Shown: positions 17,790 to 63,977 of the stretch, in pieces
Position numbering within the stretch: position 1 is the stretch's first letter
Layout: each line of letters starts with the position of its first letter
Source of the DNA: Bradyrhizobium sp. B097
GTDB lineage: Bacteria; Pseudomonadota; Alphaproteobacteria; Rhizobiales; Xanthobacteraceae
Assembly (NCBI RefSeq): GCF_038957035.1
Contig: NZ_CP152412.1
Coordinates: 5,328,501 to 5,392,500, forward strand
DNA length: 64,000 bases
Reading direction: 5' to 3'
Program-made: the position numbers and the translations under genes
The notes under the pieces: generated by a model
What the model saw: only the letters and a program-made list of their open reading frames with translations
What the model was told of the DNA's origin: nothing
The model's database searches: none

Positions 17790-17876
17790 GCATGATCCGG
17801 AAAAGTGCGAAGCGGTTTTCCGAAAGGATCATGCCAGGACAACAACCTAAAGCACGATGACGATTCATCGTGCTTC
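17790..17876. repeat. GCATGATCCGGAAAAGTG family intergenic element, copy 1
   Basis: Begins GCATGATCCGGAAAAGTG, continues AAGCGGTTTTCCG and ends with the palindromic AAGCACGATGACGATTCATC segment. Related copies are at 60016-60112 and, inverted, at 63879-63977. It lies just upstream of the soxC start, so it may touch its promoter. Confidence 0.8.
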
Positions 17877-59671: not shown

Positions 59672-60016
59672 ATGTCCTCGACCATTCCAGACAGGTTCTC
59701 GCGGAAGGCTCCCTCGCTGGAGCCGTTCGGCATGCTCCTGTTATTCGCGGTGCTGACCGCGCTGCCTATCATCCTGACCGTTCGTCTGGTTGAGCCCGCA
59801 CTCGTGCTGCCCGCGCTCAGCCTGGTGTTGTTCGCAGAGGCAGCCATTGCCGCGCTGGCGGCGCGCGTGATCCACATGCGTGCGAGCGTGGCGAACCTGA
59901 CGCTGTGGGATTTTGCCGGAGCATTCACCTTCATGGGGTGTGCGGCGGCAATCCTCGGCGAGCCGGATCAGGCGGCGCTGTTCTTCGAGGAACAGGCCGC
60001 GCTGCGTCCGGACTAG
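59672..60016 (+). CDS. Hypothetical membrane protein (114 aa)
   Basis: Three hydrophobic helices: about 18-38 (EPFGMLLLFAVLTALPIILT), 43-66 (ALVLPALSLVLFAEAAIAAL) and 75-95. The tail is acidic (EPDQAALFFEEQ). The composition is coherent and the frame uses host-like codons, but the family is not recognised. A repeat begins right at its stop codon. Confidence 0.65.
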   Translation: MSSTIPDRFSRKAPSLEPFGMLLLFAVLTALPIILTVRLVEPALVLPALSLVLFAEAAIAALAARVIHMRASVANLTLWDFAGAFTFMGCAAAILGEPDQAALFFEEQAALRPD

Positions 60017-60112
60017 CATGATCCGGAAAAGTGTGAAGCGGTTTTCCGAACAGATCATGCTCAAGCAAGAAGCGAAAGCGCGATGACGATTCATCGAAAT
60101 CTCATCGCGCTT
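60016..60112. repeat. GCATGATCCGGAAAAGTG family intergenic element, copy 2
   Basis: Begins GCATGATCCGGAAAAGTG and ends with a GCGCGATGACGATTCATC palindromic segment and ATCGCGCTT. It starts at the last base of the preceding gene and ends upstream of the riboswitch-like leader of the TerC gene. Confidence 0.8.
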
Positions 60113-60166
60113 GAGCGACCGTAAATCCCAGGCCGGGCCCCTCTGGCAGCCACAAGCTGCGATGTC

Positions 60167-60303
60167 GGACTGGAACTCAGTTGGAGTGGCCCTGCTTCGA
60201 CCCGCGACGCGGACACGCGCCGCGGTGGGTTTGCCGTCTACATGACGGCAACATCCTCTGTCGTCGAACGGTCCACTCCCCGACCTCAAGGGGAGCATTG
60301 CTG
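60167..60303 (+). ncRNA. Probable yybP-ykoY (manganese) riboswitch in the TerC leader
   Basis: Two adjacent helices: 60200-60230 (ACCC/GGGT closing, GCG/CGC, CGCG/CGCG with a GACA loop) and 60231-60251 (TTGCCGTC-TACAT-GACGGCAA). They are flanked by GGAGTGGC (60183) and GGCAACATCCTC (60247), which resemble the conserved GGGGAGTAGC and GTCAACATACTC loops of the Mn-sensing family. Downstream, CCACTCC (60273-60279) can pair either with GGAGTGG (60183-60189) or, through the overlapping CTCCCC (60276-60281), with the ribosome site GGGGAG (60290-60295). That is a translational on/off switch. TerC-family genes are classic targets of this riboswitch. The class assignment is inference. Confidence 0.62.
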
Positions 60304-60924
60304 ATGTCCGAACTGTTTTCACTCGACGCCCTCAGCGCCTTGCTGCAAGTCGTCGTCATCGACCTCGTGCTGGCCGCCGACAACGCGGTCGTGATCGGCC
60401 TTGCCGCGGCAGGCCTGCCGGCGAAGCAACGCGGCAAGGCGATCCTGATCGGCATCGGCGCCGCGACGCTGCTGCGCATCCTGTTCGCGCTGCTCGCCAC
60501 GCAATTGATGCAGATCGTCGGGCTCTTGCTGGCCGGCGGCATCCTGCTGCTGTGGGTGTGCTGGAAAATGTGGCGCGAGCTGCGCGCCACCGCGCATGAG
60601 ACGACGGCCGAGCATGCCGCCGATGGGGCGGAGGGACAGCGCAAGACGCTGTGGCAGGCCACGACCCAGATCGTCGTCGCCGACGTCTCGATGTCGCTCG
60701 ACAACGTGCTGGCGGTTGCGGGCGCGGCGCGCGAGCAGCCGATCGTGCTGGTGTTCGGCCTTGCGCTCTCGATCGCGATGATGGGCGCGGCCGCGACCTT
60801 CATCGCAAAACTGCTGCAGAACCACCGCTGGATCGCCTATGTCGGCCTCGCCGTGATCCTCTACGTCGCCGTCGACATGACCATTCGCGGCGCATCCGAG
60901 ATCGCGAAGGTCGCGCCGGCTTGA
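60304..60924 (+). CDS. TerC-family integral membrane protein (YjbE type), likely Mn2+ exporter
   Basis: 206 residues from the ATG at 60304 with GGGGAG eight bases upstream. Seven helices are expected. The two signature repeats are VVVIDLVLAADNAVVIGLAA with Asp26-Asn27, and IVVADVSMSLDNVLAVAGAA. These acidic sites are thought to handle a metal in TerC proteins, several of which exchange manganese. The leader looks like a manganese riboswitch, which supports a role in Mn homeostasis over tellurite resistance. Confidence 0.9.
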   Translation: MSELFSLDALSALLQVVVIDLVLAADNAVVIGLAAAGLPAKQRGKAILIGIGAATLLRILFALLATQLMQIVGLLLAGGILLLWVCWKMWRELRATAHETTAEHAADGAEGQRKTLWQATTQIVVADVSMSLDNVLAVAGAAREQPIVLVFGLALSIAMMGAAATFIAKLLQNHRWIAYVGLAVILYVAVDMTIRGASEIAKVAPA

Positions 60925-60940
60925 CGGCGGGCTCGTTGCA

Positions 60941-61062
60941 CCTCTCCCGCTTGCGGGGGAGGTCGGAACGCATCGTCGGATGCGTTCCGGGTGGGGGCTC
61001 TCTCCACGATATGACTCCTGGAGAGAGCCCCCACCCCAGCCCTCCCCCGCAAGCGGGAGAGG
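60941..61062. repeat. CCTCTCCCGCTT family intergenic element, copy 2
   Basis: Same outer and inner inverted parts as the copy at 49319-49439 with a few substitutions. It lies between the convergent TerC and RraA-like genes. Confidence 0.85.
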
Positions 61063-61104
61063 GAGCGCAGTTCTGTCGCGGCGGCCGATCGATCTCATCC
61101 AGCG

Positions 61105-63878: not shown

Positions 63879-63977
63879 AAAGCGCGATGAGATTAGGTCG
63901 AAGCGTCATCGCGCTTTAGTTCATTGTTTAAGCATGATCTTTTCGGAAAACCGCTTCGCACTTTTCCGGATCATGCC
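63879..63977. repeat. GCATGATCCGGAAAAGTG family intergenic element, inverted copy 3
   Basis: Runs from AAAGCGCGATGAGATTAGG through GCATGATCTTTTCGGAAAAC to CACTTTTCCGGATCATGC, i.e. in the opposite direction to the copies at 17790 and 60016. It lies directly upstream of psd. Confidence 0.8.

Follow-up and report, generated by a model that had tools for sequence, protein, structure and literature searches.

An elongated expression platform on the terC RNA preceding a yjbE-type terC gene in Bradyrhizobium: a proposed two-step translational relay

The terC RNA (Rfam RF03067, Cis-reg) was reportedly first described by Weinberg et al. in 2017. We know of no ligand for this orphan cis-regulatory family, and our literature search of titles and abstracts found no publication on its function or ligand. 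Translational riboswitches in general work through anti-Shine-Dalgarno (anti-SD)/anti-anti-SD platforms. TerC proteins have elsewhere been linked to Mn efflux and metalation (PMC10550928), and terC is named in connection with YkoY and in the references of PMC10898510. The Mn riboswitch (yybP-ykoY, RF00080) precedes terC-type genes in other bacteria. Its architecture is a four-way junction with L1/L3 metal pockets (PMC11087558).

The leader described here lies in the window (the whole stretch of 64,000 nucleotides of Bradyrhizobium sp. B097 DNA that was analysed), upstream of a TerC-family gene (PF03741; ATG 60304) whose product scored 216.6 bits against TIGR03717 (R_switched_YjbE; cut-off 134.8). 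A covariance-model search of the region 59700-60700 yielded ten Rfam matches at E<=10, among which RF03067 alone reached its gathering score. This match, which is full-length, lies directly upstream of the TerC gene and is the sole RF03067 match in the genome at E<=0.001; the family was present in 52 of 60 sampled genomes of the genus. RF00080 gave no match in the same region at E<=10, none in the whole genome at E<=0.001 (controls were detected), and none in any of 20 long-leader loci searched at E<=5, each of which did match RF03067. The initial annotation, which had itself named the yybP-ykoY covariance model as a check, was therefore wrong in assigning the leader to that class.

The leader gave no sign of the RF00080 four-way junction or of its L1/L3 metal-binding loops (PMC11087558), and the candidate insert is not conserved among homologous leaders. 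The loop segment previously placed near the yybP-ykoY consensus, ACATCCTC, is likewise not conserved, L101 keeping only a short remnant of the insert. Nor could the argument that TerC genes are known targets of the Mn riboswitch be transferred to this locus: a tblastn search with two TerC queries, covering up to 1.5 kb on each side, revealed no TerC homologue near any of 30 fetched RF00080 loci (56 genomes of the class had a match to this family). A yybP-ykoY Mn aptamer is an improbable sensor of the signal. The interval 60167-60303, in which that aptamer had been seen, shares no more than 11 nt with the terC RNA, and the supposed aptamer is therefore the region after the conserved core; the interval covers the expression platform of the terC RNA, which itself lies almost wholly upstream. 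The window leader belongs to an RNA family that is known but orphan, and its expression platform is elongated and conserved. It shares with the described terC RNA the above-gathering match over the full model, and differs from it by about 125 additional nt, the relay and anti-SD helices lying outside the 59-position model (Table 1).

Table 1. Coordinates of the terC RNA, its downstream segments and the terC gene in the window
Feature	Position	Strand	Evidence
terC RNA, RF03067 core, model 1-59 of 59	60125..60177	+	54.2 bits, gathering 39.9, E 2.1e-8
GGGCCCCTCTG, last two P1 5'-strand bases and unpaired loop; complementary to GGAGTGGCCC	60135..60145	+	pairing energies
terC RNA inner hairpin, GCAGC/GCTGC	60146..60160	+	covariance-model alignment
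GATG (unpaired, conserved) and TCGG (P1 3' strand)	60161..60168	+	model alignment; 60/60 RF03067-found loci
putative relay arm GGAGTGGCCC	60183..60192	+	SD and spacer in short leaders; would be the switching strand in the window
variable insert between relay strands	60195..60268	+	CTTCGAC/GTCGAA stem around two hairpins
3' relay arm GGTCCACTCC	60270..60279	+	pairs with 60183-60192 in 38/38
anti-SD CTCCCC, overlapping 3' relay arm	60276..60281	+	SD pairing in 38/38
terC Shine-Dalgarno GGGGAG	60290..60295	+	8 nt before ATG 60304
TerC-family membrane protein, YjbE type, 206 aa	60304..60924	+	PF03741 E 1.4e-46; TIGR03717

The conserved terC RNA core, CCGGGCCCCUCUGG...GAUGUCGG, is present exactly at 60133-60168. 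Its segment GGGCCCCTCTG occurs in 58 of the 60 loci found by RF03067 (L001-L060) and is replaced by GGGACCCTCTG in the other two, while its invariance in sets A1 and A2 is partly forced by the extraction pattern. The pairing segments named in the initial annotation were confirmed in the window sequence: CCACTCC (60273-60279) can pair with GGAGTGG (60183-60189, extending as GGAGTGGCCC to 60192), or the overlapping CTCCCC can pair with the SD GGGGAG. As CCACTCC and CTCCCC share CTCC (60276-60279), the two pairings are mutually exclusive. The two adjacent hairpins were also found as described, CCCGCGACGCG/CGCGCCGCGGTGGG at 60201-60229 and TTTGCCGTC/GACGGCAA at 60230-60251. Folding z was -3.06 for the leader (60120-60310) and -3.80 for the segment 60167-60303, and in either case none of 200 dinucleotide shuffles was as good. 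An intrinsic terminator was not detected in the window sequence, where no T run follows CTCCCC/GGGGAG, which argues for translational control. A leader peptide or an N-terminal extension of TerC was rejected, since 28 of 38 related leaders contain a stop in the TerC frame and leader lengths fall into all three phases.

Several other elements were observed around the locus. For a 114-aa ORF without a Pfam hit (window 59672-60016, + strand), tblastn gave 43 hits to homologues located before a terC RNA, and in three loci (L300, L311 and L330) the homologue follows it. A dispersed palindromic repeat, GATCCGGAAAAGTGYGAAGCGGTTTTCCG, with sub-threshold similarity to Rfam BASRCI408, is present in the window at 60020-60048, 17794-17822 and 63944-63972, and in 27 exact copies in the genome. 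Downstream of terC a large inverted repeat, CTCTCCCGCTTGCGGGGG... / ...CCCCCGCAAGCGGGAGAGG, was noticed by eye at approx. 60940-61065, and a piece of a Group II intron (RF02005, above gathering score) lies near the terC locus of a relative (L005:2917-3054).

Leaders of the genus were collected in two ways. With a pattern that fixed GGAGTGG and left the following CCC free, 80 of 265 genomes were found, and leaders were taken from 78 of them (without G616 and G625), giving 38 distinct long and 31 distinct short leaders; CCC was invariant in all 69, although the pattern did not require it. In the second collection, obtained by RF03067 alone, 18 of 30 fetched loci directly preceded a YjbE-type TerC (8 long leaders, L001-L008, and 10 short ones), and GGAGTGGCCC / GGAGUGGCCC was present in all 18, though the strand had not been demanded; L001-L008 thus also carry GGAGTGG. 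Among the other 12 loci, eleven share a different downstream sequence, and L009 stands before an ORF with an Alx-like N-terminus and no Pfam hit. The next ORF was TerB-like in the four of these eleven that were examined (L010, L016, L019 and L028), with confirmation by Pfam for L019. In L010, L011, L016, L019, L021 and others, which form another group of the genus, the terC RNA is apparently followed by a TerB-like ORF, a small ORF and TerC, in this order.

The two leader forms differ in what they do with the same strand. In the short leaders GGAG is the SD and TGGCCC then runs to 1-4 nt before the ATG, so that GGAGUGGCCC comprises SD and spacer and is at the same time complementary to the terC RNA loop. 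All 38 long leaders retain the strand but have their start codon some 110 nt farther downstream, 98-147 nt past GATGTCGG. A tree of TerC proteins placed all 38 long leaders on one side of a single branch (support 100/97); L128, whose start was not pinned by the script, was omitted from the tree but counts as one of the 31 short leaders. L059, whose leader is distant and 81 nt long, belongs to neither group, and the starts of L002, L105 and L116 needed manual correction. The tree is unrooted, and by our reading the short leader would be the older form; against this it counts that other genera hold both forms.

Among the 38 long leaders, L131 pairs GGAGUGGCCC with GGGCCCCUCU of the terC RNA at -17.0 kcal/mol, and the other 37 do so at -15.5 kcal/mol. 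Per-sequence duplex prediction revealed in all 38 a relay helix between GGAGUGGCCC and the 3' arm before the SD (-12.7 to -18.6 kcal/mol) and an anti-SD:SD helix (-8.5 to -14.0 kcal/mol; interrupted in L101). Two exclusive pairings that share a strand, one of them covering the SD, are therefore present in each of the 38 long leaders, and to this extent the related leaders back the switch proposed in the initial annotation, though not as a Mn riboswitch. The registers of the relay differ, in that the 3' arm varies and the 5' arm is constant within the genus. Compared with shuffled partner segments, the relay reached a mean z of only -2.0 (range -0.3 to -3.9), and when the partners were slid, relay pairing fell from 90.9% to at most 60.1% and anti-SD pairing from 88.3% to at most 70.9%.

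Pair counts on the genus alignment A3 showed no two-sided change in the relay, because its 5' arm never varies, and none above shuffles in the anti-SD helix; the comparison of Bradyrhizobium leaders, whose alignment had been suggested as a check, revealed both exclusive helices in 38 of 38 by duplex prediction and, on the alignment, no relay/anti-SD covariation above the control. The inner stems of the insert gave 34 cells with changes on both sides against 18.0 (sd 3.1) in shuffles, other measures being less clear; they are absent from a GTG-start subgroup and largely deleted in L101, and the relay is kept. RNAalifold on the MAFFT alignment A3 produced a different, weak consensus (-8.4 kcal/mol; CCC of the arm paired with GGG of the SD), which was not relied on, since the middle of the alignment is poor; the per-sequence duplexes were used instead.

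Downstream of the terC RNA core (60125-60177) the window carries GGAGUGGCCC, a strand that is kept across relatives and is complementary both to the terC loop and to a downstream arm. This arm overlaps the anti-SD, to which the SD is complementary. We judge it rather likely that these segments form an extended translational expression platform of yjbE-type terC, a two-step relay built on the terC RNA. The mode and direction of switching, which we infer, would be as follows: (i) in the apo RNA of a short leader the loop would pair with the SD strand (OFF), and the terC RNA fold would remove the loop and free the SD (ON); (ii) in a long leader the former SD strand would serve as the relay, so that its capture by the loop would leave the 3' arm free to mask the new SD (OFF), while formation of the terC fold would let the relay arm capture the 3' arm and release the new SD (ON). 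The sign of control would be the same in both forms.

Equilibrium folding is consistent with ON upon terC folding in the short leaders; for the long ones it is equivocal and points only weakly in this direction. For the short leader L012, the unconstrained fold with the loop:SD pairing reached -31.8, against -24.8 with P1 imposed. When the terC fold was imposed on the short leaders, median SD accessibility rose from 0.00 to 0.50, with an increase in 31 of 31; folding of the terC RNA is accordingly predicted to turn them ON. For the window, a structure with loop:arm and anti-SD pairing (-83.9) was favoured over one with P1 and relay (-77.8), with the same sign as in the short leader and a similar gap; with the terC fold imposed, relay and anti-SD were nearly equal (-77.8 vs -77.5). 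The corresponding SD accessibility changed from 0.17 to 0.22, and among all 38 long leaders it rose by more than 0.1 in 19, fell in one and changed little in 18. The order of events during transcription may decide between the states of the long leader. As in translational riboswitches, one strand would be swapped between SD masking and a competing helix; what differs is the partner of the exchanged arm in the window, since sister leaders use this partner strand as their SD, which suggests a route linking one-step with two-step control.

A search with RF03067 alone, in which the arm was not demanded, found the terC RNA in 94 of 149 genomes and in 33 of 47 genera of the family. The test at this level used 90 loci of a longer list (L280-L369; 30 taken automatically and 60 by region, several sharing a genus), in which 85 sites were re-found, 46 of them before a YjbE-type TerC; the regular expression used demands most of the terC core and misses changed sites, and therefore cannot show core variation. 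Sorted by distance to the start codon, 13 of the 46 lie within 31 nt, 27 at 90-280 nt and 6 elsewhere. In 12 of the 13 short leaders the terC loop pairs with the SD region at -12.2 kcal/mol or better, in 7 of the 13 as GAGNGGCCC. Among the 27 longer ones, 14 from 9 genera had a relay of -14 or better together with an anti-SD helix of -8 or better, and the other 13 missed one or both of these cut-offs, which were set after the data had been seen. A single genus contributes four of the 14, and L332 has relay and anti-SD helices without overlap.

Changes on both sides of a helix were found in the relay of L286 (GGAAUGGG:CCCAUUCC), where the loop:arm pairing is weak (-10.2), in the anti-SD helix of L284 (GCCCUCC:GGAGGGC) and, by eye, in L309 (CUUCC:GGAAG) and L303 (CCCUU:AAGGG). 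Swapping partners among the 27 leaders and the window worsened both helices on average, with 104 and 194 of 20,000 permutations as good; in an earlier version, run on 35 leaders with wider segments, the corresponding numbers were 298 and 144. These permutation tests, as well as the rank tests on the class leaders, ignore relatedness, and start codons in both the class and the family leaders were picked by a script that favours good SDs, the rule for the background being similar but not identical.

At the level of the class, 99 of 155 terC RNA sites (class and GTDB loci) are followed within 1.5 kb by an Alx/YjbE-type TerC in the same orientation. Such a hit was lacking at 56 sites, 9 of which had no ORF to scan; the remaining sites provided 58 ORFs, 12 of which were DUF475/TerC-like, and further matches were to DUF4112, Zn-ribbon, NhaA, Tim44, TerB, Bax1-I, M48/HtpX, DAGK, a Na/Ca exchanger and carbonic anhydrase. 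Individual cases of non-terC genes after a terC RNA are NhaA (L032, L184), HtpX-like M48 (L195), the Na/Ca exchanger (L213), Bax1-I (L219), DUF4112 (L042, L058), TerB (L049, L263) and DAGK (L031, L185). The non-terC genes behind terC RNAs hint at a wider regulon.

In the 41 leaders whose Alx-type start codon is no more than 57 nt away from the terC RNA, loop:SD pairing is stronger than at other starts (median -14.5 vs -10.2 for 401 other starts; p 6.6e-7, and p 1.4e-4 when matched for SD), whereas the 45 distant leaders among the 86 Alx-type ones showed no such excess; the 57-nt split was chosen after the pooled result for the 80 class Alx leaders had been seen, in which the excess was marginal (p 0.045). 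Loop:SD pairing was accordingly rejected as a rule for all terC RNAs, only the compact leaders showing it.

RF00080 and RF03067 occur together in 25 of 385 genomes of the class, against 7.6 expected without correction for genome size and kinship, and comparison of the coordinates by inspection placed them at different sites. Pairs of terC RNAs on opposite strands, approx. 97-133 nt apart, were seen in G098:C2, G005:C19, G186:C157 and G187:C9, and in L042 the paired terC RNAs serve divergent genes, one each (Alx-type TerC and DUF4112). In L044, L053, L054 and L282 the 3' strand of P1, CGGACCGCATCG, can by eye pair with a downstream CGATGC..GGGTCCG in place of P1 formation, which is possibly another expression platform.

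Other explanations of the leader concern its input or its platform. It is quite conceivable, if short of probable, that the terC RNA fold is read by a protein, by pH or by temperature and is not an aptamer for a small molecule or ion, in which case the platform would be unchanged and only the input would differ. The 56 of 155 sites without an Alx/YjbE-type TerC in the 1.5 kb downstream speak for this, as do downstream ORFs (DUF475/TerC, NhaA, HtpX-like M48, Na/Ca exchanger, TerB, DUF4112) that fit alkaline/cation or envelope stress; on the other hand, the near-invariant unpaired loops (GCCCCUCUG, GAUG) fit an aptamer, although they would also fit a protein site.

The platform itself might be simpler, with the relay as a permanent stem that folds the insert away and places the SD next to the terC RNA, the loop CCCCU pairing directly with AGGGG of the SD and no second step. 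We regard this as unlikely, but it is a live rival, because in the minimum free energy structure of the window the relay helix is present and the terC loop pairs with the SD (CCCCU 60138-60142 with AGGGG). The relay also has a probability of 0.95 in the unconstrained ensemble of L001, and direct masking of the SD by the loop would be the arrangement of the short leaders. Against it, the anti-SD CC at 60280-60281, which lies beyond the relay, is retained whichever of its two registers the 3' arm has, and joint changes of anti-SD and SD are seen in L284 and, by eye, in L303 and L309; a stem that acted purely as a spacer need not be complementary to the SD, nor would it explain why GGAGUGGCCC is complementary to the terC loop.

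That 60183-60281 is an independent second aptamer in tandem with the terC RNA is very improbable: the segment folds strongly and its inner stems show some covariation, but the GTG-start subgroup lacks these stems and L101 has lost most of them, with the relay maintained, and a second aptamer in this non-conserved insert was rejected. Least probable of all is a divergent yybP-ykoY Mn riboswitch, for which speak the TerC genes targeted elsewhere (meeY of B. subtilis, PMC10550928) and the NCBIfam name R_switched_YjbE, and which was rejected in view of the missing RF00080 matches in the stretch, the genome and 20 relatives, the insert not conserved in the GTG-start subgroup, the separate locations of the two families in genomes that hold both, and the fetched RF00080 loci, none of which has a TerC beside it.

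Returning to the two-step relay, a joint reading of all levels, offered tentatively and as a possibility, is that the terC RNA would be an orphan switch separate from the Mn riboswitch and versatile in its use, controlling an alphaproteobacterial regulon for cation/alkaline or envelope stress (terC/alx, terB, nhaA, htpX, Na/Ca exchanger, DUF4112 and others). In compact leaders the near-invariant loop would also act as the anti-SD, and Bradyrhizobium and its kin would keep the former SD strand as a relay to a new SD approx. 110 nt downstream, with the sign of control unchanged, so that a one-step platform would have evolved, in a way that can be traced, into a two-step one.

The comparative set provides an explicit, testable mechanism for the terC RNA in this clade, in which the loop would be the anti-SD and the SD strand would be reused as a relay. 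Leaders of this kind should not carry a Mn riboswitch annotation, and the list of gene neighbours narrows the search for the ligand of the terC RNA. The set further points to a way in which an expression platform could gain a second step and keep its logic.
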